Below, one piece after another: positions 3,863 through 54,656 of a stretch of 64,000 nt of DNA. Every line of letters starts with the position of its first letter. Position 1 is the stretch's first letter. Position numbers and translations under genes: made by a program. The notes below the pieces were generated by a model, which saw only the letters and a list, made by a program, of their open reading frames with translations, did no database searches and was not told the DNA's origin. The DNA lies in the NCBI GenBank assembly GCA_016932575.1, contig JAFGCO010000065.1, forward strand, positions 84,465-148,464. The letters are read 5' to 3'. The DNA comes from a bacterium. Lineage in GTDB: Bacteria > Zhuqueibacterota > QNDG01 > JAFGCO01.

Positions 3863-3907
3863 AAAATAGAAAATAGCCAGCTAAAATATCAATCAGGGGA
3901 ATCCTGA
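3863..3907 (-). promoter_or_regulatory. Shared stress-promoter motif upstream of htrA
   Basis: The 15-mer TCAGGATTCCCCTGA (minus strand, 3893-3907) abuts TTGATA. After an 18-nt spacer comes TATTTT at 3863-3868. It lies about 75 bp before the htrA start and is one of eleven similar sites in the window. Confidence 0.7.
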
Positions 3908-4093
3908 TTTTACGGACACAGAATACCTAAATCATCTCCTCAAGTATTGAAAATAAATATAATCGAATCTTCCCTATCATATTGAATAAGATCGATACAT
4001 AACAACACTTTACATGATTTATTCACAAATAGAAATGCCAAATCATTGTTTCGAAGGTTAAAAATGATTCGAAAAATGGCTGATGTGGGCAGT

Positions 4094-4867
4094 TTATTTT
4101 ACATGAAAAATAAATATCATCCCGAGAATTTGGTACCGTTCAGCCTGTATGGGTGCACCTTCTCCGGTCATGTGAATCCATGTTTTTGTTTTTGAATTGA
4201 ACATTTGAAACGATTTCAAAAAAATACGCTTTCCCTCCTGAATGACCTCTTGCATCAGGGCTTCTGTATTCCAGTCGGAATCGGTCCCTGTAATCCGGAT
4301 GACATGATTCAAGGATTTACCTGTCAGGTCGTGCTCAGATACAAATCCGGCCTGTTCTTTAACAGCATCATTCATTAATACGATATTGCCTACCCCGTCT
4401 GTTATCAGTACACCATACCCCGTGCACATCAAAGCGAATCGGAGCCGTTTCTCCGCCTTCTTAAAAATGTTTTGCTGATGATGCTGGCTCAGTGCAATGG
4501 CGATTTCACTTTCCAGTTCGGCATCTTTATAGGGTTTGAGCAAAAAACCGTGCGGCGTAGTTGCCTGGATCTGCTGCAGAACTTTCTCTTCGGGAATGTC
4601 GGACAGAAAAACCACCGGCACATCGAAACGGGACTGAATGTCTCTGGAAGCCTGAATCCCGCTGGTTTTCTTTTTCAACTGGATGTCGATCAGCACCAGA
4701 TCAACTCGAACCGATTCAAGTCCCTCCATCACTTCTTTACGCGTCTTCTCCACACCAGAAACAAAATATCCCATGCGTTCCAGGCTTTGTTTTAAATCAC
4801 GGGCCAGGACCGGATCATTTTCAACGATCATAACTTTTAGTTTAGGTTTTTTCTCCTTTAAAATCAT
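4094..4867 (-). CDS. Response-regulator receiver domain fused to a PAS domain
   Basis: A 257-residue soluble signalling protein. The receiver domain (about 10-125) has the acidic pair Glu16/Asp18, phospho-acceptor Asp61 and Lys111. A PAS domain occupies about 140-257 (starting near RLRFALMCTGYGVLITD). No output domain (DNA-binding, kinase or GGDEF) follows, so it probably passes signal by protein contact or phosphate relay. Its ATG overlaps the stop of the upstream glycosyltransferase gene (ATGA), so both are likely expressed from the promoter at 6251-6294. Confidence 0.85.
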   Translation of the reverse strand: MILKEKKPKLKVMIVENDPVLARDLKQSLERMGYFVSGVEKTRKEVMEGLESVRVDLVLIDIQLKKKTSGIQASRDIQSRFDVPVVFLSDIPEEKVLQQIQATTPHGFLLKPYKDAELESEIAIALSQHHQQNIFKKAEKRLRFALMCTGYGVLITDGVGNIVLMNDAVKEQAGFVSEHDLTGKSLNHVIRITGTDSDWNTEALMQEVIQEGKRIFLKSFQMFNSKTKTWIHMTGEGAPIQAERYQILGMIFIFHVK

Positions 4868-6084
4868 TTTTTTATCCTGAATACAGTTTCAAATGAATTA
4901 AAAAGATCCAGATACTGTTCTACAAGACGGGACATGAGAAACTGATCCTGAACAATTTCTCGTCCGCGTTTGCTCATTTGGCTTCTCAATGCCTCATCCT
5001 TAAGCAGCAGAACAATTCGATCCGCAGCATCACGTATGGACGATACCAAAAAGCCGTTCTCTCCGTCTCGGATCTGATACCGGATACCTCCGACCCGGCC
5101 GCCGATCACAGGCGTTCCTTTCCATAAAGCCTCAGATACCGTCAGCCCAAATCCTTCGCGTATGGATTTTTGCAGCACAACGGCCGCTTTTCTCTGCAGG
5201 GCATTGACCAGAAGACTGTTTTCATGGCTGATGATAATAATCCGCTCCTGACGATGCATAAGCAGGGATTCAAACACCTGTTCACCTTCGGGATCATCCA
5301 TGGCAGCATTCCCCAGTAAAACCAGTGTTGCGTCCACTTGTTTTCTTGCCTGTTTAAACGCCTTAATCACTCCGAGAGGATCTTTCCACCGGTCGAACCG
5401 GGATATTTGAACAATCAGGGGCAGATCTGTGGGAATCCCGTGGTTCTCCAGCTGCTTTTTGATTTCTTCCTCACTCAAAGGACGATTTTTCAGCGAAAAC
5501 GGATCAATGGCCGGCATAAAAAGACGTTGCGGCACATGGATCTTTTTTCTGAATTCACGGATACTCACAATCATGGCATCATAATAACAGATATAAGGCT
5601 TCAAATACTGCCACACTGTCCGGTTCGGGGATGACAGATCGATATGACAACGCCAGATCCAGGGACCTTTCTTTTCAAAATAATGAATCAGCGGTAACGG
5701 CTGAGGATCATGAATCACCACAAAATCATGGTCCAGTTTTTTTCGAACCGAGTTTTCATAAATCGTGCTTTCGTAAATTCTTTTTTCCATTTCGTTTATT
5801 TCATTTGGCCTTCCCTGAAGCGCATTGTGCATTTTTTTTGTAATCCCGAAAAAATCCGGTGACCCCTGGATGAGCCGCCACTCGGTTTTAATCCCCAGGC
5901 TGTTCATCAGCAGGGTCAGAACAGATAAAATTTCCGCCACACCTCCTCCATAATAGGTGGAATTAACATGAACCACGTTGCGCTTTTCCAGTGGCTTGGC
6001 TTTCATCCGGATTCTGTTGAGTGCTTCTGATCCCGTTATGGATTCATAATCATCAATGGTTTTCAGCGGATAATCAAATTTCAT
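4864..6084 (-). CDS. treT: GT4 glycosyltransferase, probable trehalose synthase of TreT type
   Basis: 406 residues from the ATG at 6084. The frame stays open further upstream to a GTG at 6153, but the AGGAGG lies between the two, which favours 6084 although the 15-nt spacing is long. The N-terminal block NSTYYGGGVAEIL (about 41-53) is the hallmark of the TreT/trehalose phosphorylase branch of GT4. The C-terminal half has ISRFDRWKDP and EGFGLTVSEALWKGTPVIG, the nucleotide-sugar site of retaining GT-B enzymes. The family makes trehalose from NDP-glucose and glucose, or cleaves it with phosphate; I cannot tell which direction here. It adds a third trehalose route to the two others in this window. 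Confidence 0.8.
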   Translation of the reverse strand: MKFDYPLKTIDDYESITGSEALNRIRMKAKPLEKRNVVHVNSTYYGGGVAEILSVLTLLMNSLGIKTEWRLIQGSPDFFGITKKMHNALQGRPNEINEMEKRIYESTIYENSVRKKLDHDFVVIHDPQPLPLIHYFEKKGPWIWRCHIDLSSPNRTVWQYLKPYICYYDAMIVSIREFRKKIHVPQRLFMPAIDPFSLKNRPLSEEEIKKQLENHGIPTDLPLIVQISRFDRWKDPLGVIKAFKQARKQVDATLVLLGNAAMDDPEGEQVFESLLMHRQERIIIISHENSLLVNALQRKAAVVLQKSIREGFGLTVSEALWKGTPVIGGRVGGIRYQIRDGENGFLVSSIRDAADRIVLLLKDEALRSQMSKRGREIVQDQFLMSRLVEQYLDLFNSFETVFRIKK

Positions 6085-6405
6085 AAAATCGGTTCTTTTC
6101 CTCCTTTCTCGATTGAGAGCCGAGCCTTTGCGATTATCAATATTAAAAGCCACTGCGGTTGTTCTACATGGTTCGAAAAATTACAATAATCGTATCAACC
6201 CATCAATCACGAACGTTGAGATGTTAAAAATTTGTTTCATATCCAATGAGAGTGTATGGATTCTTTTCAGCAATTACTATCGGGAGAATCCTGATATGGA
6301 TAGAAATTTGCCCTGAATGAAATCATGCATATCAGTGGAAAATTTATGTGTAATATCAGGTAAAAAAGGGATTTTTCACATTATTGATGCAGTAGCGGAA
6401 TAAAG
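6085..6405. other. Intergenic region with promoter site
   Basis: About 320 bp between the treT start and the restored stop of the response regulator. I see the promoter motif at 6251-6294 and no credible gene. The rest is AT-rich leader sequence. Confidence 0.6.
6251..6294 (-). promoter_or_regulatory. Shared stress-promoter motif upstream of treT
   Basis: Minus-strand TCAGGATTCTCCCGA (6280-6294) is followed directly by TAGTAA, a 17-nt spacer and TACACT (6251-6256). The right half is the CCCGA variant also seen at 12961 and 37777. The leader to the treT start is about 165 nt. Confidence 0.6.
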
Positions 6406-6773
6406 CTATTGTTCAATATCCTTCAGTATTTTCTGGATGGCCCCCAAATTTACAGGTTTTTCAATAAATGCAATCGGGTGGACTTTTTGAGTACGCTTTT
6501 TGATATATTCGGTCGCATAACCACTGATGAACACAATTGGAATTTTCTTTTTTTATGAATTTCTTCAGATACTTCAATACCATCCAATCCACCGGTCAGC
6601 CGGACGTCCATGATAATAAGATCCGGTTTCTGTTCAAGTGCAATACCGACCGCGTCTTCGCTCTTGACAACCTGGTTGATGACCTTGGCACCGAGATCCA
6701 TAATATCCAGTGCCAGACTTCTAGCCGTTAATCGTTCGTCTTCTAAAATAAGTACTTTTAACGGTTTTTTCAT
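6406..6773 (-). CDS. Single-domain response regulator, interrupted by a -1 frameshift
   Basis: CheY-like receiver with Glu11/Asp12 and phospho-acceptor Asp56, starting 3 nt after the stop of the large sensor kinase, so it is the probable partner of that kinase. The uninterrupted frame ends at 6450 with a non-homologous tail. If one base is added to the run of seven A (6548-6554), the frame continues as IPIVFISGYATEYI, then FIEKPVNLG, and stops at 6406, which restores the conserved Thr/Ser-Gly-Tyr region and the Lys of the KP motif. The cause could be sequencing undercall, a real mutation, or -1 slippage on A AAA AAG. Confidence 0.75.
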
Positions 6774-6776
6774 GGA

Positions 6777-9700
6777 TTATATCCTTGGCCTGTATAATTC
6801 TTTTTTTAATTTAATCTGGCACTTAAGCCCATTTTTACTTTGAAAAAAGACTTCGCCTTTAAGCTGATGTTTCGTCAGTTCAACAACCGTATCCAATCCC
6901 AAATGTGCATGCGTTTCTACACGAAATCCTTCAGGCAAACCGATTCCATTGTCGGATACTTCAATAATTATTCCTTTCCGGGAACTTGCATCCAGCTTCA
7001 CATGGATCTCTCCATTTCTTCCTTCCGGGAATGCATGCTTCACGGCATTTGACAGCAATTCATTCAATATCAGCCCCAGCGGGACAGCCGTATCAATTAA
7101 AACAGGCACATCAACGGCATCATATGTGAACTTGATCCTATTTTTTTTTGTTAAAAAACTTTGCTGAATCAGAGAGATCAAATCATTGAAATAGTATTTT
7201 AAGTTTAAAGAGGAGAGATCTTTGGATTCATACAATTTTTGATGCACGAGCGCCATAGACCTGATTTTATTCTCGATCTCTCGAAAGGTAAATTTCATAT
7301 TTTCATCCGGAAGCGTACGTGCCCTTAACCGCAATAAAGAAGAAATGACCTGCATGTTGTTTTTTGTGCGGTGATAGAGCTCACGCAGGAGAATTTCCTT
7401 TTCTTTCAGATTATTCTGCACTAATTCTTTTGCTTTGTTCGTTTGTTCATGAAGGCTCGCATTCGATATTGCCTGAATAATTGTTTTGGCAAATATATTC
7501 AGCATATCAATATCCTCTTTCGGTACCTGTTCCATAATGCTGGATACAATGAGAGCTCCGATCATCTTTTTCTCAAGTATCAGCGGAACCAGAATATAAC
7601 TTTTACTGTTACTGAGTTTCTCCACCGCTTTGCAAGCCGATTTTGAAATTGTTGAAGGCATAATATCAGAAGGGTGATTTGTTATCACAATTTTACCATC
7701 GAAAGCGGATTTTATAATACGTTCGTTCATCTGATAAGAAGTAAACATCGTATCCTTAATCGGTAGACCTAAGACTTTATTGACCATTGCCACATTGACT
7801 CTGGAGGAATGAAAGGACCTCATATGATAACTTTCATCCTTTTTATCCAGAGTCAGAATAATCGCTGTTGAGAATCCCAATGATTCGACGGCGGCAGTTG
7901 TGATATGTTTAAAAATCACATTCAGATCCAGGCTTTCATGAACAGCTTCGGTTATTCGATGCAAAATCCTCAGCCGTTCATTCACTAAACGGAGTGTTTC
8001 TTCAGCTTGTTTGCGTTCTGTGATGTCAATAATCACGCCCACAGCTTCAAAATGTATTTCACTCATTTGTTTGACTCTGGCGTCTTCATACATCCAGTGA
8101 ATGATGCCATTGGCATCACGCAGCCGGAATTCCTGGTTGTATCGATCAGCGCCGTGTTTGATGGCCTCTGAACTGACACGGTCCATGGCCTTGCGGTCTT
8201 CTTCAAGAATGCTGAAATAATACATATTATCCAGATTATGACTCGGATGATCCTGAAGGGGAATCGTCTCTTTGATAGAGTCCAGATTCAAATAGTGTGT
8301 TTTCCATAAAAATTCCTGACCAGTTCGTTTTTTACCCTTTTGTCTGATAACAGGGGAATGCCAGAGAATGGCCTGAGCCCCTTCCATCACACGGTCAAGA
8401 TCTTCCTCCGCCAGCTTGCGTTTTGTAATATCCCGGACCACACTCAAGATCGCCTTTTCTCCGCGATACGTCACAAGACTTGAGCTGATTTCAACCGGAA
8501 TTTCTTTCCCGTCTTTTGCTCGATGCCGGGTTTCAAAAACCTGCCGTTCACCCCGTTTCATTCCTATTATCAAATCGTTAATCTCATCCTTGCTGAGATG
8601 AGGATCAATATCTATCGGCCCCATTGTAAGCAGCTCTTCTCTTGAATATCCAAGCGCCTTCACAGCTGTTTCATTCACCTCAACAAACTTTCCATGAAAA
8701 TCGATCACAAAAGCGGTGTCGTTCATGCCGTCAATCAGCTGCTTGTATTCCTTTTCATGTTTTTTCCATTCGGTGACATCCTGAACAGTGGCAAAAACTG
8801 TCCGTGATTGATCTATCCGCCGCTCAATCACACCTTCAATGAGCACGTAAATCGATTCACCGTTTTTTCGAATAAGACGCAATTCAATCGGCTTCAGCTC
8901 ATTTTTTCTGGAGACAACACAAGCATTCAACCAGTCTTTCAGACGCTCTTCGTCATCCGGATGATGAATATTTTCACTGATTAAATTATGGTTATCCATT
9001 TCGGATGGATCGTATCCCAAAAGATCGCACATCGTATCTGACCAGATGACTTCATCGGTTTGAACATTCCAGGTAAAATCACCCATTTTTGCAATACGCT
9101 GAGCAGTCATGAGTCTTTTTTCACTTGCTACCAGAGCGGTTTCCGATTGTTTTTTATGGATGACTTCCCATGCCGCATCAGCAAGGTGCCGGACAAGCTC
9201 GGCATCTTTTTCAGTATAATCCCGGGGTTTATTCCGAACTCCAATAATCGCAACTGCCCTGTCTTCCCGTATAATCGGAATGACCATTTGACGAATCACT
9301 GCAGCACAGTTTTCCGGCGGGCCATTCTTTTTATGAAAAGAACGATAATCATTCTTAATCACCGGCTTTTTATGGTCGATGCATTCCTTCCAGGCATCAT
9401 GCTGATCGAATCTGTCATGAAGACTCTTATTTTTACCCCGGCAGAATTCTATCCAGTTTTTATTCGGCCACTTCTGATGACTCAGCAATTTCATTTCGAT
9501 ATCCATCATATGGAAAAATCCAACAGGACTGTTTACAAACGCGCCAATCCTGTCCAGAGACAATGTAATTAATTCATCCAGTGTATGATCAGCCGCATAA
9601 TCGACAAGATCAAGACGGAATTCCCTCAAGTGCCGGGCCAGCCGCTCTTTACTTTGATCCCGGAATACCAGAACCACACCAATAATGACGCTGTTTTCAT

Positions 9701-11036
9701 CACGAATAGGAGCTCCGCTGTACGCAATGGGAATTTCCCGTCCGTCTTTTGCGATTAAAATCGTACGATTGGCCAGCCCAATCACGCCACCTTCTCTGAT
9801 GACTTTGGCAACCGGATCTTCAAGGCTCTCTTTCGTTTTTTCATTGACAATGATGAAAACATCGGTGAGTGATTGACCACAGGCGTTTTCTTCGGTCCAT
9901 CCTGTAAGCCTTTCAGCCACAGGATTCATAAGCTCAACCTGCCCGGCAGAATTCGTTGAAATGACAGCATCACCAATAGAATTCAGGGTAACGGCGTGCT
10001 TCTCCATACTGACACGCAACGCCTCCTCAGAATGGTACAGTTTTTGATAATATGTTCTCAAATACCGCTGTCTGAAAACCAATCCGGACACGATTACCAG
10101 GCATACAATTCCCGCAATGAGAAGAAGAATCAGCAGGGAACGGAAATGCCAGTCCGCAAATGCTTCATCAGCATCCATCTTGGATACAATGAACCAGGGA
10201 GAATCCGGAACCGGAAGCACGGCTGCCAGCACGTCGATGCCGCGATAGTCTTTTCCCTCAACAATCCCGGTTTGACCTTGAACCGCCATGGCCGAAGGAA
10301 ATTCGGCCCGGCTGACGGGAATCCTGAGTTTCAGAGCCGTATCTGTCCTGTGACGCAGATCGTTCAGAAAGAGAACTTCGTGACCTTCCTGACGGATAAG
10401 CAGGGTTTCGGCAGTTTTGCTGGGCGTCGGCCAGGACTGAATAAGGGGGTATAAAAATTGTTTTGCATTACAAATCATGATGACGGTTGCCAACAGTTCC
10501 TGATCATTTTTTTGAGTAAAAAGCGGCGTAACAACAGAAAGATGTGGAAATGAATATTCAGGCTCCCGATGCAAGGAGGTCCAGACAGGCTTTCGTACAG
10601 TCATTGCTTCTTCCAGCGTCGCATTGAATTCCTGATGCAAATCCATTTTGCCGCTCATACTCAACCGAACATGTTTTTCATAATCGACAAGCAGGATGTC
10701 GGCAAAATGATAACGTTCGATAATCGGACGGAAACGTCGTTTGATTTCCGATGCCTCCCATTCTGATGATGTCATTAAGAATCGTTCGATTGAAGTCATC
10801 AGAGAGCGTCGTTCCATCAATACGGCTGCGTCAGCCAGTCGCTCTGCACGCCAGTCTGCGATTTGGCGCGCTTTCAGATGAGCAATATCCATAAGTCGCG
10901 ATTCAACAATCCGCCGCTGATGTGTTTGCTGTGCCTTAAAAAATAAAAACCCAATACAAAGAAGAGACAGAATAAACGTTGTGAAGATGATGACTATCCA
11001 GCGGGGAAAAACAATATGATTGCCTGAATTGATCAT
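6777..11036 (-). CDS. Membrane sensor histidine kinase with four PAS and two GAF domains (HisKA_2 type)
   Basis: About 1,419 residues from the ATG at 11036; the frame is open to a TTG at 11072 and neither start has a strong ribosome site. Two membrane segments (about 13-34 and 300-321) enclose a periplasmic sensor of roughly 265 residues. Inside follow PAS, GAF, three PAS and a second GAF. The phospho-acceptor His is in YHRTKNN (about residue 1222), the HisKA_2/HWE-like form often paired with single-domain regulators, and an HATPase (NELLSNAVKHAF, DNGIGLP) ends the protein. The downstream receiver at 6406-6773 is 3 nt away and is the likely target. Ligands are unknown. Confidence 0.9.
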   Translation of the reverse strand: MINSGNHIVFPRWIVIIFTTFILSLLCIGFLFFKAQQTHQRRIVESRLMDIAHLKARQIADWRAERLADAAVLMERRSLMTSIERFLMTSSEWEASEIKRRFRPIIERYHFADILLVDYEKHVRLSMSGKMDLHQEFNATLEEAMTVRKPVWTSLHREPEYSFPHLSVVTPLFTQKNDQELLATVIMICNAKQFLYPLIQSWPTPSKTAETLLIRQEGHEVLFLNDLRHRTDTALKLRIPVSRAEFPSAMAVQGQTGIVEGKDYRGIDVLAAVLPVPDSPWFIVSKMDADEAFADWHFRSLLILLLIAGIVCLVIVSGLVFRQRYLRTYYQKLYHSEEALRVSMEKHAVTLNSIGDAVISTNSAGQVELMNPVAERLTGWTEENACGQSLTDVFIIVNEKTKESLEDPVAKVIREGGVIGLANRTILIAKDGREIPIAYSGAPIRDENSVIIGVVLVFRDQSKERLARHLREFRLDLVDYAADHTLDELITLSLDRIGAFVNSPVGFFHMMDIEMKLLSHQKWPNKNWIEFCRGKNKSLHDRFDQHDAWKECIDHKKPVIKNDYRSFHKKNGPPENCAAVIRQMVIPIIREDRAVAIIGVRNKPRDYTEKDAELVRHLADAAWEVIHKKQSETALVASEKRLMTAQRIAKMGDFTWNVQTDEVIWSDTMCDLLGYDPSEMDNHNLISENIHHPDDEERLKDWLNACVVSRKNELKPIELRLIRKNGESIYVLIEGVIERRIDQSRTVFATVQDVTEWKKHEKEYKQLIDGMNDTAFVIDFHGKFVEVNETAVKALGYSREELLTMGPIDIDPHLSKDEINDLIIGMKRGERQVFETRHRAKDGKEIPVEISSSLVTYRGEKAILSVVRDITKRKLAEEDLDRVMEGAQAILWHSPVIRQKGKKRTGQEFLWKTHYLNLDSIKETIPLQDHPSHNLDNMYYFSILEEDRKAMDRVSSEAIKHGADRYNQEFRLRDANGIIHWMYEDARVKQMSEIHFEAVGVIIDITERKQAEETLRLVNERLRILHRITEAVHESLDLNVIFKHITTAAVESLGFSTAIILTLDKKDESYHMRSFHSSRVNVAMVNKVLGLPIKDTMFTSYQMNERIIKSAFDGKIVITNHPSDIMPSTISKSACKAVEKLSNSKSYILVPLILEKKMIGALIVSSIMEQVPKEDIDMLNIFAKTIIQAISNASLHEQTNKAKELVQNNLKEKEILLRELYHRTKNNMQVISSLLRLRARTLPDENMKFTFREIENKIRSMALVHQKLYESKDLSSLNLKYYFNDLISLIQQSFLTKKNRIKFTYDAVDVPVLIDTAVPLGLILNELLSNAVKHAFPEGRNGEIHVKLDASSRKGIIIEVSDNGIGLPEGFRVETHAHLGLDTVVELTKHQLKGEVFFQSKNGLKCQIKLKKELYRPRI

Positions 11037-11203
11037 CCAATACCCCAGAATAGGATCAAAGTCAGAAACCAAAATACGATGTTTATTCCTGTTATTTGAT
11101 TATTTCCCGTAACTCCTGAAATCCGTTTCCAAAAGATAAAAATCAAACGGAACATTCGCAAGGGTTTAATTCAGGTAATTTATTTTTTCCAGTGATTCGC
11201 GGT

Positions 11204-12865: not shown

Positions 12866-13178
12866 CTTTTCCTCCTTAATTTTTTTATATACTAGTGCGT
12901 ATATTCAGATAGTTATTTTTCGGTTCAACGAATGATAGGGACGCCGGGAGAAAATTGCCATCGGGATAATCCTGAAAAGATCGGGTGGTTTTCCTGACAT
13001 GAGAGTCAATATCGTAGTTGGAGAATATATATAGAAAATAGCGAAATATTCGAATTTGTCCCGTTGATACGACAGCAACCGGGTGAATTCCGGGCGGGGA
13101 TTCCCGATTCCCCGTAAAGCGGGAATGTCCAGAGTCACGTGATGGAAACGGCATGTTTTGAATCGGGCATTCGGACAA
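12866..13178. other. Intergenic region upstream of superoxide reductase
   Basis: About 310 bp. It holds the promoter at 12932-12975 and, at 13107-13126, a small GC-rich hairpin (ATTCCC/GGGAAT arms) that could end the hemerythrin transcript, although no T-run follows. Two short frames here have no family features and I do not call them. Confidence 0.5.
12932..12975 (-). promoter_or_regulatory. Shared stress-promoter motif upstream of superoxide reductase
   Basis: Minus-strand TCAGGATTATCCCGA (12961-12975) abuts TGGCAA; a 17-nt spacer leads to TATCAT (12932-12937). It is about 67 bp before the superoxide reductase start. Confidence 0.65.
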
Positions 13179-15532: not shown

Positions 15533-15546
15533 AGAATTTTCCATTT

Positions 15547-18976: not shown

Positions 18977-19035
18977 GTTTTCCACCTCCAGTTTTTGTTG
19001 GTTATTCATGTCTTATTAAAATTAACGGCATTACG

Positions 19036-19534: not shown

Positions 19535-19578
19535 TAAATAAAGAAAAAGGGATGCAGAATCAATCAGGCAAATCCTGA
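19535..19578 (-). promoter_or_regulatory. Shared stress-promoter motif upstream of hsp20
   Basis: Minus-strand TCAGGATTTGCCTGA (19564-19578) abuts TTGATT; a 17-nt spacer leads to TATTTA (19535-19540), overlapped by TATAAA. A further half-site (TTCAGGATTAA) lies about 20 bp upstream. Confidence 0.72.
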
Positions 19579-27115: not shown

Positions 27116-27159
27116 ATGGTAAGTTTTGCAATGAAGAATCTCAATCAGGAACTTTCTGA
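27116..27159 (-). promoter_or_regulatory. Shared stress-promoter motif upstream of ferredoxin
   Basis: Minus-strand TCAGAAAGTTCCTGA (27145-27159) abuts TTGAGA, then a 17-nt spacer and TACCAT (27116-27121). One half-site is weaker (TCAGA). Confidence 0.55.
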
Positions 27160-29352: not shown

Positions 29353-29903
29353 TATAGTCTCCTGTCATCATTCATTTGGCTCTTCATGATTAAAAATAAC
29401 CAGGCATGTTTATGGGATCAATCAGGGAAGCCCCCATTTTTATAACCGATCTTCCCTACCATCTCTGAGCGAGAACAAATCTATGAAATGATTATCCTTA
29501 TCCAGCTGCATAATACATTACTATTCTTCTTAATATGAATATAAACCGTATACTTATATGTAGTTACATTTTCAATAACTTCAGCGGTTTTGATCATTGA
29601 TGTGGATTCATCATTAAAGAGGAATAACCTTCTTAACAATCAGGTATTTTCTTAAAATGTGGATTTTTTTGAATGATTCTCAGTTCTATATAGGAAGTAG
29701 AATTAGTACTGTATGAATAAAAGCATGACGGAAATAAACGGCTCCATCTGGTTTATATCTGAAAAATCCGAATCCCAGCTTTCGCAGGAGTGCTATAAAT
29801 AAAAAACATCATTAAAAGAATTTAATCCGATTATGTCTTTTGCAGGATTCAGCAGGTGAAAATTTCGGGCGGCAGCCGGGAATAAACATGGCAGTTGACT
29901 GAT
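29353..29903. other. Long intergenic region
   Basis: About 550 bp, strongly AT-rich. Besides the promoter at 29393-29436, a lone half-site (TCAGGTATTTT) sits near 29639. I see no open frame with family features and no clear RNA fold. Confidence 0.5.
29393..29436 (-). promoter_or_regulatory. Shared stress-promoter motif upstream of the CBS-uspA-protease operon
   Basis: Plus-strand TCAGGGAAGCCCCCA (29422-29436) has one good and one weak half-site. On the minus strand it abuts TTGATC, a 17-nt spacer and TATTTT (29393-29398). Confidence 0.6.
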
Positions 29904-30503
29904 TTACGACATCGAGATCCAATCACGCACAAATCGTGTTTGCAACTTTTCAACCTCATCCGTATCGATTTCCAAATCACCAGCCAGTTGCAAAATACTT
30001 TTTCCGGCACTCAATCCATAAATCACTTTTTGTTCTGTTTCAGACAATTCACTTTTTAATAAACATTTTTCTGTAAGTATTCTCTGGTAATCCTTGAATA
30101 CAGTCATCTGAGCTTCTTGGCCCAATACAATATAACCCTTCAGGACCAACTGAATGGCATTTCGGATATCTTGAAAAGCGTTGCTCTTGATCAGATATCC
30201 TGATGCCCCCGCACCCAGCATGCCCAGTATAAACTGCCTTTCACAATATATGGAAAGTCCGATGATATGCATGTCCGGAAATTGCTGCTTGATCAGTTGT
30301 GTGGTTGCCATGCCGTTCAATTCAGGCATATTGATATCCATGAGAATCACATCCGGTGCCAAAATCTGTGCTTTCTGCCGTACGGATATGCCGTTCGGTG
30401 CTTCTCCGACGACCTCCATATCCGGATGGTTTGAAAAAAGGCTTCTCAACCCTTCCCGGAGAATCGCATGATCATCTGCCAATAAAATTTTTGTTTTCAT
30501 CAT
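29904..30503 (-). CDS. NarL-type response regulator with degenerate HTH
   Basis: 199 residues. The receiver is intact (Asp10/Asp11, phospho-acceptor Asp56, SGYLIKSNAF with Lys). The C-terminal region aligns with a LuxR-type HTH (LSETEQKVIYGLSAGKS) but the recognition helix, normally VS..TV..H...I..KL, reads IDTDEVEKLQTRF. It may bind DNA weakly or not at all. It follows the seven-PAS kinase gene by 165 nt and has its own motif promoter (30612-30657), the only perfect palindrome of the set. Confidence 0.85.
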   Translation of the reverse strand: MMKTKILLADDHAILREGLRSLFSNHPDMEVVGEAPNGISVRQKAQILAPDVILMDINMPELNGMATTQLIKQQFPDMHIIGLSIYCERQFILGMLGAGASGYLIKSNAFQDIRNAIQLVLKGYIVLGQEAQMTVFKDYQRILTEKCLLKSELSETEQKVIYGLSAGKSILQLAGDLEIDTDEVEKLQTRFVRDWISMS

Positions 30504-30611: not shown

Positions 30612-30657
30612 TAAGTAAGGGAATGTATCGGTATAAAATCAATCAGGGAAACCCTGA
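30612..30657 (-). promoter_or_regulatory. Perfect copy of the shared stress-promoter motif, upstream of the response regulator
   Basis: TCAGGGAAACCCTGA (30643-30657) is a perfect 15-bp palindrome. It abuts TTGATT; TACTTA follows after 19 nt and TATAAT after 23. It lies about 140 bp before the regulator start, just past the kinase stop. Confidence 0.72.
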
Positions 30658-30668
30658 TTTTACTTCAT

Positions 30669-33600
30669 TTATTCACCCAGATCAAGCGGTGCCTTCAGCC
30701 GGATGTATGTGCCCTTGTTTTTTTCTGAAATCAACTTGAACTGCCCCTTCATGAATTCGATCCTTTCCTGGATATTGAATAATCCGAATCCGGATGTCGT
30801 TTCCATATCTGCTTTCAACTGGTCCGGATTAAAACCGCATCCGTCATCCTTGACCTCGATCTGTATCTTTGCTCCTGCTTTCATCGCCCGGATATGGACA
30901 TTTTCAGCGTCTGCATGCTTGACAACATTCATGAGAAGTTCATGGACCGCCTGAAATAGCATGTTGCGCATATCCTCACTGACGGGCTTTTCTGTATGAT
31001 CATGGGTAAAATGACAGGTCAGTCCATATTCTTTTTCAAATTGTTCGCTGAGCCACTCCAGTGCCGGGATCAGCCCCAGCTCGTAAAGTACCGGAGGGCT
31101 GATCTGAAACGTCATGGATCTCAATTCCCGTATGGTTTCTTCCAGATGATTGTGAACCTCTTCCATGACAGGTTTCTGAGATTCGGAGGAATCGATGTTT
31201 ATCGCCTGATCGAGTTTCATATTGGACAGCACGAGCATCTGTATAATGCTGTCGTGCAGTCCGGCTGCAATCTCCCTTCGCTGGCGCTCTTCTGCCCGTA
31301 TCAATTCTGCTGTCAGCGAACGCAGTTTATCCTGAAATTCACTTCGCTGTCTGATCTGCTTCTTTAATTCCCGGTTCGTTTTCCGGAGTTCTTTTGTCCT
31401 TTCCTGAACCTGCCGTTCGAGCTGCTGCTTGGCCTCGCGCAATGCATGTTCATTGAGAACGCGTTCTGTAATATCATGCTCAATTGTGGCAACCGCATAA
31501 ACCGTATTGTCTATATCCCGGAGCGGGGAAAAACTAATGGCCACATATATACTTCGGTTGTCCTTTCGAATCCGATTGGTTTCGTAATGTCGAATATGCT
31601 CGCCTTTTTTTGTGCGCTCTATTAAACGGGCCTCTTCGTCGCGTTTATCTTCCGGTAAAATCCGGTCGATCATATGGCCGATCATTTCCTCGGTTGCATA
31701 TCCATAAATCCGTTCGGCTCCGGTATTCCAGGCCGTAATGATGCTATTCATGTCACGTACCACAATGGCATCCTGAGATTCAGCCACGATTTCAGCAAGC
31801 AGCCGTTGATTTTCCACAGCCTGTTTCTGATCAGTGATATCCTGAACCATGCCCAGCATGCGTACGGCCAGGCGATTTTGATCGCGGATGACATTGCCGG
31901 TCTGGCGTAGCCATCGAATGCTGCCATCCATACATATCACCCGGTGTTCCACATCATAAAGACTGTCTTCTTCTATACAGGCATTAATGGCCTGAGTCAC
32001 CCGTCTGCGGTCCTCCGGATGAATCAGCCGCAGAAAAGAACGGTAAGACCGGTCGATCCTGCTTTGTTTCATGCAGAAAAGCTGTTCCAGGGTATTCGAG
32101 TATTCCACCTTGCCGGATCGGATATCCCAGTCCCAGTTGCCGATACCGGCCAGCTGCTGAGCCAGACAATATCGTTGTTCGCTTTCCTGAAGTTTTTCCT
32201 GCCGCTGGCGCCTATCTGTAATATCATGCCAGGTGACCACTGCACCATTCATTTCGAAGGGATCCTCAATCGGGGAGGCGGAGACTAGAACATAACGCAT
32301 CTGATTCTCTGTATTTTTAAAGAGGCAAAGTTCATCCTTAATCATCTCTCCGGAAAGCGCGCGACGGTATATCACTTTATCTCTTGGACATTCTGCCGAG
32401 CTTTCCGGAGGGATCAGCAGGCTGTTCAGTGCTTTTTCCTCCTGAATGGAAACCGGTTCGCGTCCGAGGGCCGCATGGGCAGCCGGATTGGCTTTGATAA
32501 TTTTTCCCCCGGGATTGAAGACCAATATGGGATCCGTCAGAGAGCCGATGACTGCTTCCAGCCTGGCAGTCTGGTTCTTCAGGTCCCGGCTCAGAGACTG
32601 GATATCATCGATAAACCGCTCTCGTTCTGCAATGGCCCGTTGATCTTCGGTAACATCGACCAGGGAATAAACCAGGCCGGTCACTTCGCCGATGCTGTCT
32701 TTCACCGGAACAAGCGACCAGTCCCAGTAGGTCATGCCCCGGTCCGGATCCCCCGGAAACTCGAAGGGCTTGGCCTCTGTCATAAACGGTTTTCCTGTTT
32801 TTCGTACTTGCTTAAAAATAGCCTGGTTTTCTTTATCCGGGAAAATGTCGAAATGATTATTTCCGATTAACTCCTCTTCGCTGTAGCCGCATCCCCGGGC
32901 ATAGGCACTGTTGACCATGACAAAATTAAATTCCCGGTCCAGATAAGCCAGATGGGTGTTGGTGTTGTCCATGACCACTTCGAGCAGATCCCGCTCTTTT
33001 TTAAGATCCCTCTCCGCCCGTCGCCTGGGTGTTACATCCCGGGCCACACTCAGCACGGTCTCTACCCGACCGTCCTGATCAAATTCCGGAATCAAGCTGC
33101 AATAAAATATGCGTTTTTCTCCGGATTCAGGAAATTCAAATTCCACGGTATCCGGTTTTTCGCTTTTTATGACCTTGTCAATCCTTTTCTCCCACAGATC
33201 GCACAGGAAATCAGGTAAATCCAGATTGCGGCTTGTTTTTCCAATTAATTTCTCGGGAGGCATCCCGGTAAGACCGCTGATGGTCTGATTGATGTACACA
33301 AGGTGAAAATCCCGGTCAAACCGGGCAATAATATCCGGAGAATGATCGGCCAGTGTCTGGAGGCGTTTCTCACTTCCGAGTATCGCCTGTTCCGCCTTTT
33401 TCTGCCGGCGGATATCAATACCAATGCCGATCCGGGTATCATCGTTCAGTTTGATATTGGTCCACTCGGAGGGAACTGTATCTCCTGTTTTGGTGGTCAC
33501 ATTGAATTCCCGCCACCCGGGATGAAGCGAATCCATAAAGTTGCTGACTTTTTTACGGTAGGCGGGATCCGGGTAGACCTTGCTCATGAAATCGCCCTGA

Positions 33601-34154
33601 TTGGCATCCTTATTTGTCCAGCCAAGCACATCCCGGGCATGTTTGTTGAGTGTAAACCGCTCGAGTTTCGGATCATACAACACAAGCATAACGGGGATGG
33701 TATCCACGAGGGACTGAAGCAGATTACGTTCCCGGCTCAGCGCCTCTTCCACCTGCTTGCGCTCGGTGATGTCCAAATGGATCCCCCTCGTGCGGATCAC
33801 CTCCCCCTGTTCATTACGGTAAATACGGCCGGAAGCGACCAGCCACCGGATATCGCCGTCTTCCCGTACGATGCGGAATTCATCGCGAAACTCATTACCG
33901 GATTGAACGACTTTTTCGAGATGTTTCCGGACGCGGACCCGGTCCGCTTCATGGATATATTCGAAAAAGGTCTCACCGGTGACGGATTCGCCTTCGGGAT
34001 CACGGCCCAGCATCTCGTACAGCAGGAGATTCCACTTGGTTCGTCCAGTCCGGTAATCCCGGGCCCATATACCCAGTCGAGCAGTTTCAACAGCGAGCTG
34101 ATAACTGTCTTCAGTGCCGGGCAGTTCATTTTTCACTGTCTTTTGTTTATTCAT
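30669..34154 (-). CDS. Soluble multi-PAS histidine kinase (NarL/HisKA_3 type)
   Basis: 1,161 residues from the ATG at 34154 (a TTG at 34169 is also in frame). I count seven PAS domains with their PAC tails between about 15 and 910, a coiled coil, then HisKA_3 with phospho-acceptor His967 (GLHDSIIQML) and an HATPase (DDGCGFNPD, GFGLFNIQERI). There is no membrane segment, so it senses cytoplasmic signals such as redox or gas ligands. HisKA_3 kinases phosphorylate NarL-type regulators; candidates are at 29904 and 51595. Confidence 0.92.
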   Translation of the reverse strand: MNKQKTVKNELPGTEDSYQLAVETARLGIWARDYRTGRTKWNLLLYEMLGRDPEGESVTGETFFEYIHEADRVRVRKHLEKVVQSGNEFRDEFRIVREDGDIRWLVASGRIYRNEQGEVIRTRGIHLDITERKQVEEALSRERNLLQSLVDTIPVMLVLYDPKLERFTLNKHARDVLGWTNKDANQGDFMSKVYPDPAYRKKVSNFMDSLHPGWREFNVTTKTGDTVPSEWTNIKLNDDTRIGIGIDIRRQKKAEQAILGSEKRLQTLADHSPDIIARFDRDFHLVYINQTISGLTGMPPEKLIGKTSRNLDLPDFLCDLWEKRIDKVIKSEKPDTVEFEFPESGEKRIFYCSLIPEFDQDGRVETVLSVARDVTPRRRAERDLKKERDLLEVVMDNTNTHLAYLDREFNFVMVNSAYARGCGYSEEELIGNNHFDIFPDKENQAIFKQVRKTGKPFMTEAKPFEFPGDPDRGMTYWDWSLVPVKDSIGEVTGLVYSLVDVTEDQRAIAERERFIDDIQSLSRDLKNQTARLEAVIGSLTDPILVFNPGGKIIKANPAAHAALGREPVSIQEEKALNSLLIPPESSAECPRDKVIYRRALSGEMIKDELCLFKNTENQMRYVLVSASPIEDPFEMNGAVVTWHDITDRRQRQEKLQESEQRYCLAQQLAGIGNWDWDIRSGKVEYSNTLEQLFCMKQSRIDRSYRSFLRLIHPEDRRRVTQAINACIEEDSLYDVEHRVICMDGSIRWLRQTGNVIRDQNRLAVRMLGMVQDITDQKQAVENQRLLAEIVAESQDAIVVRDMNSIITAWNTGAERIYGYATEEMIGHMIDRILPEDKRDEEARLIERTKKGEHIRHYETNRIRKDNRSIYVAISFSPLRDIDNTVYAVATIEHDITERVLNEHALREAKQQLERQVQERTKELRKTNRELKKQIRQRSEFQDKLRSLTAELIRAEERQRREIAAGLHDSIIQMLVLSNMKLDQAINIDSSESQKPVMEEVHNHLEETIRELRSMTFQISPPVLYELGLIPALEWLSEQFEKEYGLTCHFTHDHTEKPVSEDMRNMLFQAVHELLMNVVKHADAENVHIRAMKAGAKIQIEVKDDGCGFNPDQLKADMETTSGFGLFNIQERIEFMKGQFKLISEKNKGTYIRLKAPLDLGE

Positions 34155-34395
34155 ACCTCTTCTATCCAACGTCTCTTTTCATTATATTGATTGATGCTGT
34201 TAGCCCGTTGCCGGAAAATACCGCTGAGGTTCAAAACACGGTTTCATAAAAACAGGCGCGGTCATTCACAAGATAATTGCTTTGCACAATAATGTAAAGT
34301 CCTATATTAAAATAACAGGTTATAAATGCCGGCATTCTTAATTCATATGATTGTTTGATATTGTATATTTTTTCTGGATTCAAAAAATTCAAAGT

Positions 34396-37747: not shown

Positions 37748-37791
37748 ATAATAATCCGTGTTTTTATGACTTTCCATCGGGAAAATCCTGA
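37748..37791 (-). promoter_or_regulatory. Shared stress-promoter motif upstream of the three-BON gene
   Basis: Minus-strand TCAGGATTTTCCCGA (37777-37791) abuts TGGAAA; a 17-nt spacer leads to TATTAT (37748-37753). About 55 bp separate the -10 from the start codon. Confidence 0.68.
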
Positions 37792-40243: not shown

Positions 40244-40286
40244 ATATTATAATTAAAAGAGGAAAGTTCAATCAGGGATAACCTGA
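40244..40286 (-). promoter_or_regulatory. Shared stress-promoter motif upstream of the phasin-like gene
   Basis: TCAGGGATAACCTGA (40272-40286, plus) abuts TTGAAC on the minus strand; TAATAT follows after 16 nt at 40244-40249. A second TATAAT-like block is nearby. Confidence 0.6.
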
Positions 40287-40323
40287 GAATTTAAACATAA
40301 AATCCTGATCAGCAACCTGAAAA

Positions 40324-47548: not shown

Positions 47549-47616
47549 AAATAATGATCTCCTTTGGGGGGACTCGTCCTGTTTCTTCTTGTCGCGATTT
47601 CAGTCAGACAGCGGAT

Positions 47617-49152
47617 TTATTCAACAAAGTGCCCCAAAAAGCGCCGGGTTTCCTCCACATCCTGCAGACGATAGCGGGCGGAAGTGAATTGTCCGTGATC
47701 ACCGATCAATATTCCGATTCCGGAATTTTGTATTGAACGAAACGCATCTTCATCCGTTATATCATCCCCCAGATAAAACGGCAGAGTGTTCAACGGACTC
47801 AAACCCAACCGGTGCATAAGCCAAAGGACGGCTTTACCCTTGTGCCACTCGATATCCGGTTGAAGTTCCAACACTTTTTTCCCTGTTCCCTGCCTTAATG
47901 TGTCACAGCCGGATAAAATCTGCCCGACGATATTTTTCACTTCCAGGATCTTGCCGGGATCCACATTCCGATAATGTACAGCCACTGCGAATCGTTTACG
48001 CTCCACCAGAGCTCCCGGGACCGGTTTCAGTTTTTGTCGGAGCTTCTGTTCGGCCCTGTCCAGATCCGGCATTGCGGATTTGGCTGCATCATATTGCATC
48101 CGGGTTCCATCAGGCATCCGGATGTCGAATCCGTGACTGCCGGCATAGATCAGTTCGTCCAAGCAAACAAAATCCATGAGGATTTTCAGATCCCTCCCGC
48201 TTACAACCGCGGTTGGTGTGCGATTGCCCAGCTTCTTCAATAGGGTACGCATCGATTCAGAAAGAACGGCTTCTTCCGGTCTTTTGACAATGGGTGTCAA
48301 GGTACCGTCATAATCTAAAAACAGGGGACAATCTTTATCAGCCATCATATGCTTAATGGATTGTATTTTTTCCAGCGCGGAAGGCAATCCATCCGGACGG
48401 AATTTAAAATTCCCTGAATCAGAAATCCGGATATCCTGAAAAGATCGAATGGTCATATCGGCTCCCTTTTTACGGAGCTGATGCTCCTGACCCTCTCTGG
48501 CCACACCAATCACCAGGCCGAATTCTCCGGACTTGCCGGCCTGCACACCGGCTTCTGCGTCTTCCATCAGGAGGGCTGCCCTGGGAGGAATACCAAGTTT
48601 ACCGGCTGCATGAATGAAAAGATCAGGGGCCGGTTTTCCCTGAAGCTTTTTCGTTTCGGCAGTCAAGCCGTCCACGCGCACATCGAATAAAGACACCAAG
48701 TTTGTTGATTTGAGGACGGCTTCACAATTTTTACTCGAGGATACGACAGCAGCTTTCAATCCCATTTTTTTCCATTTACGGATTTTTTCAACCGAATCGC
48801 TGAATACCTCAGCTCCTTCCTGGTTCAGTAACCGGTTAAATATCTCATTCTTCCGGTTGCCGACAGCACAGACCGTATCCCATCCGGCCCGATCATTCGG
48901 TTTTCCTCGCTGCAGTTGAATGCCGCGTGACTTCAGATAACTTTGAACCCCGTCATACCTGGGCTTGCCGTCGACATACTGCCGGTAGTCTTTATCAGGA
49001 TCAAACGGCTCATACCCGGATTGTCCCTCGTGCTTCCGGTGGTCCAAATAATCATCAAATACCTGTTTCCAGGCTTTTGCATGCAGAGAGGCGGTTCTTG
49101 TAATAACGCCGTCCAGGTCCAGAATGATTGCTTGTATCCTGTTTAAACGCAT
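47617..49152 (-). CDS. Fusion of beta-phosphoglucomutase and trehalose-6-phosphate phosphatase
   Basis: 511 residues, two HAD domains. The first (about 1-250) has LDLDGVITR (Asp12/Asp14) and LMEDAEAGVQAG, as in beta-phosphoglucomutase, which turns beta-glucose-1-phosphate into glucose-6-phosphate. The second (about 270-511) has DYDGTLTP (Asp280/Asp282), VVSGRD and YLGDDITDEDAF, as in OtsB. Together with the GH65 gene 68 bp downstream, trehalose-6-phosphate could be dephosphorylated, phosphorolysed and returned to glycolysis. Confidence 0.9.
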   Translation of the reverse strand: MRLNRIQAIILDLDGVITRTASLHAKAWKQVFDDYLDHRKHEGQSGYEPFDPDKDYRQYVDGKPRYDGVQSYLKSRGIQLQRGKPNDRAGWDTVCAVGNRKNEIFNRLLNQEGAEVFSDSVEKIRKWKKMGLKAAVVSSSKNCEAVLKSTNLVSLFDVRVDGLTAETKKLQGKPAPDLFIHAAGKLGIPPRAALLMEDAEAGVQAGKSGEFGLVIGVAREGQEHQLRKKGADMTIRSFQDIRISDSGNFKFRPDGLPSALEKIQSIKHMMADKDCPLFLDYDGTLTPIVKRPEEAVLSESMRTLLKKLGNRTPTAVVSGRDLKILMDFVCLDELIYAGSHGFDIRMPDGTRMQYDAAKSAMPDLDRAEQKLRQKLKPVPGALVERKRFAVAVHYRNVDPGKILEVKNIVGQILSGCDTLRQGTGKKVLELQPDIEWHKGKAVLWLMHRLGLSPLNTLPFYLGDDITDEDAFRSIQNSGIGILIGDHGQFTSARYRLQDVEETRRFLGHFVE

Positions 49153-49617: not shown

Positions 49618-49629
49618 AGACCAGGATAA

Positions 49630-50603: not shown

Positions 50604-51143
50604 CTATTTGGTCTTTACCGATTTTGAAGTTTTACCAGTTGTTCGTGCTGAATTATTTTTTTGAGACAGAACGGATTTGTATGTTTTTTTGTGAGAAACG
50701 AACAGTCCGATTGCTACAAGCAGTGCTGCTATCCCCAATATAAAAAGAACTATCGAAATGATCCAAAGACGATCGATTCGTTTTTCCTTTTGGATCAACT
50801 GCTGTTCTTTTTCCATCACAGACTGTTCCCGCTCTTCCAGCAAATCCAGAAAACGGTTCATTCTTGCTTCCACATCTTTTCTCTTGCTCACCAATTCCGG
50901 TTCCTGTTCCCGGCTTTTTTTTGTCAACATTCTTGTTTGTATCTCTGTTCGTAAAGTATCTGTTTCTAATGTATCCGGTTTGGCTGCAGGCACTGCTGTG
51001 GAATCGGATTCAGAAGAGTTCACCTGGGGCTGATCGACTTTTCCGTTACAGTGAATGAAAATCATGAACCCTACTGTCAATCCGAAAAGAATGAAGGGCG
51101 ATATTCTTCCCCTCGTCTCGGTAATCATGGTTTGAAGACGCAT
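50604..51143 (-). CDS. Membrane-anchored coiled-coil protein of unknown function
   Basis: 179 residues from the ATG at 51143 (AAAAGGAG upstream). No family recognised. A hydrophobic N-terminal stretch with a lipobox-like IFIHCNG (Cys about 30) suggests a lipoprotein or anchor. It is followed by a Ser/Thr/Asp-rich linker, a Glu/Arg/Gln-rich coiled coil (about 80-125), a membrane segment (about 130-155) and a basic Lys/Ser tail. The two membrane anchors would place the coiled coil in the periplasm. A motif promoter precedes it. Confidence 0.65.
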   Translation of the reverse strand: MRLQTMITETRGRISPFILFGLTVGFMIFIHCNGKVDQPQVNSSESDSTAVPAAKPDTLETDTLRTEIQTRMLTKKSREQEPELVSKRKDVEARMNRFLDLLEEREQSVMEKEQQLIQKEKRIDRLWIISIVLFILGIAALLVAIGLFVSHKKTYKSVLSQKNNSARTTGKTSKSVKTK

Positions 51144-51594
51144 GGATTTCTCCTTTTCAAATAGTTCATCCTGATTCAACTCATTTATTGATGTTTTATC
51201 GGATCCGAAATCATGATGAAGTATCTTTCACAGACATCCTCTCCTCCGGATCCCCGACCTTCAGTCGTCCTTCATATCTGTATTTAATTCAATAAACGAA
51301 TTCATGCGTAGAGAATCAATCAGGTGAATCCTGAAATACCGGGATTATATTCCTGAAATGAATTTTGCAAACCATTCAATCAGGGATGCTGTATTTACCG
51401 CTCCGTTTGGACAAGCTGGTGAATACGGGACTGAAATAGCAAATCTGGATAAAAAATCAGAATAAAGCAAGAATTGGATGTGTTAATTAAAAATTGAACT
51501 TCGGCGAATATCAAATTTATGAGAATCTCATAGAAGATTACCTTTTCACTGATATTTTAAATGAATTTTTATACTGATTATTTGATTCTTGTCA
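51144..51594. other. Intergenic region with motif promoter and extra half-sites
   Basis: About 450 bp. It contains the promoter at 51289-51334, a half-site TCAGGGATGCTGTAT at 51380-51394 and TCCTGA at 51351. No gene seen. Confidence 0.5.
51289..51334 (-). promoter_or_regulatory. Shared stress-promoter motif upstream of the coiled-coil membrane gene
   Basis: Minus-strand TCAGGATTCACCTGA (51320-51334) abuts TTGATT; TATTGA follows after 19 nt (51289-51294). About 145 bp of leader precede the gene. Confidence 0.6.
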
Positions 51595-52245
51595 TCATTC
51601 AAGAGTAATGACGCCGTGTTTTATGGCATATTTGACCAAATCCTGAACGCTGTAAATGTCCAGTTTGTGCATCAAATTCTGGCGATGGGTTTCAATGGTC
51701 TTCACGCTGACCGAAAGATCTGAGGCGATTTGTTTGGTATTTTTACCCTCCGCAATCAACTGCAAAACCTCCCGTTCCCGCTCGGTTAGCAGCGAATACG
51801 GACTTTCTTCTTTTTGAAGTAAAAATTTGCGGTAATCTCCGATAACCGTGCCCATAATTTTCCGGTCGATAAAAATTTCATTACGCCGCACGGCAAATAT
51901 CGCTTCTGTCAATTCATCCGGTTCACAGTCTTTTAACAAATAGCCTGAAGCACCTGCCCTCAGCATTCCTGAAATATACACCTTATCCGAGTAGATTGAC
52001 AAACCAATCACCTTGATTGCAGGGTCAAATTCAACAATTTTCCGGGTGGCTTCGATTCCATTCAAGTCCGGCATATTGATATCCATCAGAATAATATCCG
52101 GTTTTAATTCCTGGGCCAACCGAACCGTTTCGCGCCCGTTTGAGGCCTCGGCAACAACATCAAAAAGATCCCTGTCTTCAATCAGGCTTTTAAAACCCGT
52201 TCGGACCAATGTATGATCATCTGCCAGTAATATGCTTACGGACAT
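51595..52245 (-). CDS. NarL/FixJ-family response regulator
   Basis: 216 residues. The receiver has Asp9/Asp10, phospho-acceptor Asp55 and a Lys in YLLKDCEP. The LuxR-type HTH is intact (LTEREREVLQLIAEGKNT, then SVSVKTIETHRQNLMHKL). It is therefore the best candidate in this window for a DNA-binding stress regulator. No kinase gene is adjacent; the seven-PAS HisKA_3 kinase 17 kb away is a possible partner. A half-copy of the shared motif lies upstream at 52427. Confidence 0.93.
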   Translation of the reverse strand: MSVSILLADDHTLVRTGFKSLIEDRDLFDVVAEASNGRETVRLAQELKPDIILMDINMPDLNGIEATRKIVEFDPAIKVIGLSIYSDKVYISGMLRAGASGYLLKDCEPDELTEAIFAVRRNEIFIDRKIMGTVIGDYRKFLLQKEESPYSLLTEREREVLQLIAEGKNTKQIASDLSVSVKTIETHRQNLMHKLDIYSVQDLVKYAIKHGVITLE

Positions 52246-53665: not shown

Positions 53666-53914
53666 TCAATCATAAGTGTCAATCCACCGTTCAATGCTCA
53701 TTTTCAAATCTTCAATATCAAACCGCAGGGCTTCCTGCTCAGAAACTTGCATGAAGGCGGACGATTCCCGCCAATGGCCAAGCCTGTTTTCCAGGCTCTC
53801 TTTCTTTTTTCCCAATGCACCCAATTGTTCAACCTGTTTTTCAGAGGACACATTGTCTTTCTTAATTTTATCTTGCAATATATCAAGCCGCGCATCCAGA
53901 TCTGCAAGCAACAT
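53666..53914 (-). CDS. Small coiled-coil protein of unknown function
   Basis: 82 residues, almost entirely helical: a heptad stretch with LDARLDILQDKIKKD and a second helix ending in Trp-Ile-Asp. No family recognised. The ribosome site is weak. Position between msrB and uspA and an all-soluble, charge-balanced sequence make it plausible, but it could be spurious. Confidence 0.5.
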   Translation of the reverse strand: MLLADLDARLDILQDKIKKDNVSSEKQVEQLGALGKKKESLENRLGHWRESSAFMQVSEQEALRFDIEDLKMSIERWIDTYD

Positions 53915-54040
53915 TTCAGATTATCCGATAAATTCATTTTTCAAAATAAATCACACTCCTACATTCGAATAATAGCTGGCAGGCTGCTTTGAATCCTGCG
54001 ATCCCTCCATTTCATCTTCGGGTCAATACGATAAAATAGA

Positions 54041-54514
54041 TCAATCAGCCTTGTTAATCCGAATGCTGAGTACCGGACATGATGCATGACGAATCACACC
54101 TTCTGCAACTGATCCCAAAAAAATTCTTTTCAGACCGGTCCGGCCGTGTGTGGTCAGGACGATCAAATCGGTCTGTTCTTCTTCAGCCAATTTTATTATT
54201 TCATCCGCGGGCATTCCTGCAGCCACTTTCTTTTTCAGGGAGACATTTTTATTATTATATTTTTCTATAAGCTGATCCATACTGTCATAGGATGCTTTTT
54301 CCATTTCCTGCATGAATGCCTTCAAATTCAACCAGGGTGTATTATAATGAACCATACCATAAGTCGTTCCGATACCGGGAATATCTGTAACAATATGGCA
54401 CATGATTACAGTCGCCTTGAATTTCTCCGCCATTTCCATAGATATTTTAAGCGCTTTCACAGAATAGTCACTGAAATCTAGAGGACAAAGTATTTTTTTT
54501 AAAGGGAACATCAT
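54041..54514 (-). CDS. uspA: Universal stress protein UspA family (copy 2)
   Basis: 157 residues from the ATG at 54514 (AAGGAG upstream); a longer frame upstream lacks a ribosome site. KKILCPLDFSDYSVKALK and THGRTGLKRIFLGSVAEG, the ATP-binding loop, are nearly identical to the copy at 28465-28950. The promoter motif sits about 100 bp upstream. Confidence 0.93.
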   Translation of the reverse strand: MMFPLKKILCPLDFSDYSVKALKISMEMAEKFKATVIMCHIVTDIPGIGTTYGMVHYNTPWLNLKAFMQEMEKASYDSMDQLIEKYNNKNVSLKKKVAAGMPADEIIKLAEEEQTDLIVLTTHGRTGLKRIFLGSVAEGVIRHASCPVLSIRINKAD

Positions 54515-54612
54515 AAGATACTCCTTCTCAAATAGGGGTGTCTGGTAAAAATATGTTCGGATATCCTTCATTTATAAAAATGGTTATCCAATTCATATCC
54601 ACAACTAATCCA

Positions 54613-54656
54613 ATAATAGCCTTAAATACCTGAAATAGCAATCAGGGATCTCCCCA
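54613..54656 (-). promoter_or_regulatory. Shared stress-promoter motif upstream of uspA copy 2
   Basis: Plus-strand TCAGGGATCTCCCCA (54642-54656) has one strong half. On the minus strand it abuts TTGCTA, a 17-nt spacer and TATTAT (54613-54618). Confidence 0.6.

Follow-up and report, generated by a model that had tools for sequence, protein, structure and literature searches.

The window, a stretch of 64,000 nucleotides of bacterial DNA, carries eleven similar 15-mers, each placed upstream of a gene or gene cluster. The locus raises the question of whether these elements belong to a single regulon and, if so, which protein reads them and to what effect. An earlier note on this DNA had described them as palindromes of the form TCAGG-N5-CCTGA or TCAGG-N5-CCCGA in front of stress-type units. 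All eleven of its coordinates proved correct, and each 15-mer is on the minus strand. The palindromic form is exact in eight of the eleven sites, but those at 27145, 29422 and 54642 are imperfect. The sites and the genes that follow them, with operon extents inferred from gene order, are these:

3893..3907, minus strand: operator TCAGGATTCCCCTGA, with a weak upstream element TAGGT (3925-3929) and the -35 hexamer TTGATA (3887-3892), before HtrA (2283-3818).
6280..6294, minus strand: operator TCAGGATTCTCCCGA, upstream TCAGG at 6312-6316, before the trehalose synthase TreT (4864-6153).
12961..12975, minus strand: operator TCAGGATTATCCCGA, upstream TCAGG at 12993-12997, before desulfoferrodoxin (12560-12865).
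19564..19578, minus strand: operator TCAGGATTTGCCTGA, an exact match to the full consensus, upstream TCAGG at 19596-19600, before Hsp20 (19036-19464) and a protein with six BON domains (17465-19009).
27145..27159, minus strand: imperfect operator TCAGAAAGTTCCTGA (TCAGA-N5-CCTGA), upstream TCAGG at 27177-27181, before a ferredoxin (26777-27046) and a Rieske/oxidoreductase protein (25166-26728).
29422..29436, minus strand: imperfect operator TGGGGGCTTCCCTGA (TGGGG-N5-CCTGA), upstream TAGGG at 29454-29458, before CBS (28984-29352), Usp (28465-28950) and M50-CBS (27314-28444) genes.
30643..30657, minus strand: operator TCAGGGTTTCCCTGA, upstream TGGGT at 30675-30679 overlapping the final codons of the kinase gene, ahead of the regulator paralogue RR2.
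37777..37791, minus strand: operator TCAGGATTTTCCCGA, upstream TCAGG at 37809-37813, before a BON protein (36960-37694).
40272..40286, minus strand: operator TCAGGTTATCCCTGA, upstream TCAGG at 40304-40308, before a phasin-like gene (39841-40143) and ABC1 (37875-39605).
51320..51334, minus strand: operator TCAGGATTCACCTGA, an exact match to the full consensus, upstream TCAGG at 51352-51356, 261 bp after the regulator gene RR1 and before orf191 (50604-51179), then Fpg, NfeD, HAD-TPP, GH65, DUF72 and GAPDH.
54642..54656, minus strand: imperfect operator TGGGGAGATCCCTGA (TGGGG-N5-CCTGA), upstream TCAGG at 54674-54678, before Usp (54041-54571), orf82, MsrB and PEBP.

The targets make up one stress island, in line with the stress-type units of the earlier note, with the correction that one of them, RR2, is a damaged regulator paralogue.

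The palindrome is far more frequent in the window than chance would produce. The pattern has 14 strand matches, which fall in nine distinct places, where 0.26 would be expected, and no dinucleotide-shuffled sequence reached 14. One extra exact match, at 1471, is without promoter context. The earlier note had called the sites almost all intergenic; in fact all eleven palindromes are, and 85.4% of the stretch is coding (probability under random placement about 6e-10). Each lies 70-141 bp upstream of a start codon.

Directly after the palindrome the sequence is promoter-like. The bases TTG come next at eight of the eleven sites, with an exact TTGAT at five, in agreement with the abutting TTGATN-like hexamer reported before. 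The best -10 element is 17 bp further on in seven of the eleven, which reproduces the earlier count. At this spacing the -10 scores average 2.9 bits, compared with roughly -1 to -3 bits at spacings of 12-16 and 18-21. Several sites have weak -35 hexamers, such as TAGTAA, TGGCAA and TGGAAA. The arrangement, a palindrome abutting the -35 with a normally spaced (17 bp) -10, is that of a class II-type activator site.

The operator had been described with two half-sites, and this has to be corrected to three. Alignment of the eleven sites reveals a further TCAGG whose first base precedes the palindrome by exactly 22 bp, two helical turns from its left half. At least four of the five bases are present in eight sites, the first T and the G at the fourth position are invariant in all eleven, and no other offset in the alignment comes close to -22. 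Together with the -35 and the phased -10, the third half-site defines the unit TCAGG-N17-TCAGG-N5-CCTGATTGAT-N17-TATWAT. Assuming a transcription start 7 nt downstream of the -10, the centre of the palindrome falls near -43 and the additional half-site lies near -70. The site at 29422 has a matrix score of 34.3 with the full set and 16.3 when left out, the latter within the range of the shuffled maxima, which reach 17.6; the case for this site is therefore made by its CCTGATTGAT element, its -10 at 17 bp and its position before a stress unit.

Eleven alike elements in one block and in a single orientation might also be copies of a mobile or duplicated repeat, with no regulatory meaning. This is extremely improbable, since conservation is confined to the half-sites, the -35 and the -10, the spacers and flanks vary from site to site, different genes follow each element, and the unit is also found in other families amid unrelated flanks.

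The distribution of the unit in the genome (4.41 Mb in 72 contigs) was examined by pattern searches. With up to 3 mismatches allowed, the full unit has 10 matches in the genome, all of them island sites and all on one strand, and the reversed control pattern has none at the same tolerance. The island site missing from the ten is the weaker one at 29422. The bare palindrome does occur elsewhere in the genome, but the promoter-linked form is restricted to the island: TTG follows none of the 31 bare non-island palindromes versus eight of the eleven island sites, and the -22 half-site accompanies one of the 31 (Fisher p = 1e-5 for the island excess). No full operator was found at up to 2 mismatches in other genomes of the same order and class. 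Phasing, intergenic placement, confinement to the island and the lack of further copies of the unit all speak for the class II-like activator predicted earlier to act near -43.

A candidate reader and its likely partners are encoded within the island:

51595..52245, minus strand: RR1, a NarL/FixJ-type response regulator with a receiver and a GerE helix-turn-helix, the proposed operator-binding activator.
30669..34169, minus strand: HK, a multi-PAS histidine kinase of 1166 amino acids with HisKA_3 and HATPase_c domains, the proposed kinase of RR1.
29904..30503, minus strand: RR2, a paralogue of RR1 with an intact receiver and a degenerate, truncated helix-turn-helix, the proposed feedback component.

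RR1 has the complete NarL/FixJ layout (Pfam Response_reg, 1e-29; GerE, 8e-20), and its D55 is conserved in the alignment. The kinase has PAS, HisKA_3 and HATPase domains and gave no match to a GAF domain. Its gene is 17 kb from that of RR1, and no clear operator is present directly upstream of either gene.

The association of RR1 with the operator was approached from two sides. The DNA-only operator search of 82 genomes of the phylum gave mostly chance matches, with clear ones in the genomes G056, G064, G041 and G016; loose matches at 3 mismatches were likewise mostly chance. In the protein search with RR1, the best-scoring relatives in the phylum were those of G041 (59%), G056 (54%), G064 (49%) and G044 (47%), so that the top three belong to genomes already flagged by the DNA-only search. 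In these three genomes an operator lies less than 200 bp from a REC-GerE regulator gene which adjoins a histidine kinase gene, and in G056 all three exact operator matches are on the regulator's 25-kb contig. Scanning of the flanks in G044 located a match 60 bp after the regulator, which is near the shuffled background by itself and counts because of its position. In four other families, then, an operator and an RR1-like regulator are less than 200 bp apart, and in two of these the order is kinase, regulator, operator, receiver. In G044 the receiver is an RR2-like protein with the phospho-acceptor Asp replaced by His, and G064 has a receiver-only protein in its place. The kinases adjoining these regulators match the window kinase at 1e-58 to 1e-111, and the promoters of the different families align at the palindrome and the -35. 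The operator of G041 precedes Usp, phasin-like and ABC1 genes, homologues of the window's Usps and of the 40272 unit, the phasin and ABC1 proteins being 44% and 48% identical to those of the window. Proteins with Por-secretion tails were also seen in relatives and may hint at a phylum of the FCB group. This linkage of the operator to a kinase-regulator pair across families gives independent support to the putative regulator at 51595-52245.

The recognition segment KT[IV]ET[HY]R is common to RR1 and the four phylum regulators. It is also present in some phylum regulators without flanking sites, and is therefore necessary rather than sufficient. The Planctomycete relatives examined, which are the best named matches of RR1, have EADRR or EANRR in its place; a kinase match is nearby, but there is no operator, and they were set aside. 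In the sequences flanking the more distant homologues in the phylum and the Planctomycete relatives, no operator clearly above the shuffled background was detected. In G009 a relative of RR1 (53%) and a kinase lie beside SufBD/SufC, and there is no operator on that regulator's contig. The regulator tree is poorly resolved and poorly supported and was not used as proof. Among viral contigs, the exact full operator has one match (L173), which is GC-rich and coding-like and was judged to be chance.

A different regulator might instead read the operators, such as one of the Crp/Fnr type or another GerE-type protein encoded elsewhere, RR1 being a neighbour by coincidence. G016, which is 98% complete, lends some weight to this reading. 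Two operator-like promoters stand there in front of genes for secreted repeat proteins, but no full-length RR1-like regulator is present (the G056 regulator finds at best a receiver-only match, 1.4e-10), so another protein may read a similar site in that genome. That RR1 and the kinase are not adjacent in the window and are without clear operators of their own points the same way. The proximity of operators to RR1-like regulators in four other families argues against a different reader, and an FNR-type site was rejected because the TTGAT-N4-ATCAA dyad is absent from the eleven sites. On balance a reader other than RR1 appears unlikely.

The eleven elements are probably the operator-promoters of one regulon run by RR1, with HK acting upstream and RR2 damping the response. 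The scheme that follows, from the signal through RR1 binding and promoter activation to damping by RR2, is inferred. A signal would reach the multi-PAS kinase, which would phosphorylate RR1. Dimers of phosphorylated RR1 would then bind the palindrome, and a further subunit or dimer would occupy the TCAGG two turns upstream. Bound RR1 would recruit a sigma-70-type RNA polymerase to the often weak -35 hexamers with their 17-bp-spaced -10 elements, so that the chaperone, redox, trehalose, Usp/CBS, BON and repair genes are turned on together. RR2, made from its own operator and without a working DNA-binding domain, would probably damp the response by taking up phosphate or by pairing with RR1.

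The abutment of the palindrome on the -35 could also suit a repressor, and RR1 might hold these promoters silent until stress relieves the repression. The palindrome, however, is outside the core promoter, on its upstream side; several of the -35 hexamers are weak; and the constant position of a second element, 22 bp upstream, fits activator geometry. In addition, DevR-type regulators activate through a -35-proximal box (PMC3029386). Repression by RR1 is accordingly regarded as very unlikely, and activation is retained.

RR2 lacks several features of a functional GerE protein: it has no GerE match, the KTIETHR recognition motif is lost and the C-terminal (last) helix is missing. A profile of the decayed C-terminus has convincing matches only in the window and in G044. 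As a presumably non-binding paralogue under predicted RR1 control, RR2 may plausibly serve as a feedback brake. The Asp-to-His change in the G044 protein argues against a pure phosphate sink there.

The system is comparable to the DosR/DevR-DosS system, in which a NarL-family regulator is likewise paired with a two-component kinase. The DosR targets include Hsp20, ferredoxin and Usp genes, matching targets found here. The DosR half-site is of the GGGACT type, unlike TCAGG, and the DosS kinase is GAF-based, whereas the window kinase is multi-PAS without a GAF match and so does not have the haem GAF sensor of that system. In both systems the operator adjoins the -35 of stress or dormancy genes and has an adjacent second site; DevR promoters have a box that overlaps the -35 and depend on cooperative binding at neighbouring sites (PMC3029386). 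The DosR regulon of Mycobacterium tuberculosis includes otsB1 and hrp1 (PMC5484546), which are paralleled here by the HAD-TPP and GH65 genes and by the CBS genes. The present regulon differs in being confined to one island. RR1 is nearer to VraR and NarL (137 and 126 bits) than to DevR (97 bits); among solved sequences VraR, NarL and DesR all outrank DevR. VraR and NarL, the closest solved relatives, share the receiver and GerE layout, but their function and operator differ and the likeness is at the level of the family only.

A parallel in organization is OsdR-OsdK of Streptomyces coelicolor, also a stress regulon physically clustered around its regulator. Eight sites close to osdR govern 20 of the 22 genes around it, Usp and hemerythrin genes among them (PMC5069765). 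The OsdR/DevR-type operator consensus given there is AGGGCCGATCGGCCCT, in contrast to TCAGG-N5-CCTGA; the OsdR regulon also reaches across the chromosome, and the sections consulted mention no third half-site at fixed spacing (PMC5069765). The system thus works like DosR/OsdR but falls outside that group by its operator, its sensor domains and its sequence rank. The kind of system is known; what is new is the operator and its layout of three half-sites, together with the lineage, the restriction to one island and the RR2 element. A literature search for the motif or for a CCTGA-type LuxR regulator found none.

To our knowledge, no regulon has been defined for this deep uncultured lineage. The present analysis assigns to a complete programme of stress survival a predicted operator, regulator and kinase, and suggests that clustered dormancy-type NarL/FixJ regulons extend beyond Actinobacteria. 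Because the regulon is on one DNA segment, it could be tested whole or piecewise in a laboratory surrogate host. A more far-reaching proposal, which is put forward tentatively and with some doubt, is that the island is self-contained. Its eleven promoters, spread over 51 kb, would be the sole targets in the genome of one kinase-regulator pair acting through the operator with three half-sites, and a co-regulated paralogue with a decayed DNA-binding domain would be a built-in brake. On this view the core of kinase, regulator and operator recurs in other families of the phylum with different cargo, stress genes in the window and in G041 but secreted proteins in G056.

Variant operators in G056 and G016, two other genomes of the phylum, have their half-sites separated by TTTTTCGAACC-like sequence.

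L174:5544, L174:8049 and L221:3062: variant operator, G056
L175:2705 and L176:9927: variant operator, G016

Downstream of them are genes whose secreted products carry a Por-tail, BNR or FG-GAP repeats, a cargo that differs from that in the window. Another genome, G009, encodes a kinase with a regulator resembling RR1, the NarL/FixJ-type proposed reader of the window's operators.

L150:7274-10827: kinase and RR1-like regulator, G009

An operator was not detectable at this locus, which is adjoined by convergent SufBD/SufC homologues of window 40324-41979.

Further features belong to the window itself.

6450-11072: large PAS/GAF kinase (HisKA_2) and short receiver protein
15297-15692: PfkB match, 131 aa
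19636-23451: NAD-dependent DNA ligase and family X polymerase genes
45128-49152: adjacent HAD-TPP and GH65 genes

The PAS/GAF kinase, accompanied by the receiver protein, is a second large kinase inside the stress island, and no operator was found directly upstream of it. Both the ligase and polymerase genes lie inside the island, which suggests a dedicated repair pair. The HAD-TPP and GH65 genes look like a split version of mycobacterial OtsB1, judged by the domain layout of that protein. The PfkB match is limited to the N-terminal portion of the family, positions 4-77 of the 302 in the profile, and another reading frame overlaps it; it is possibly a remnant or a frameshift. Upstream of the palindrome at 51320, at a distance of about 60 bp, is an additional CCCTGATTGAA half-operator (51384).
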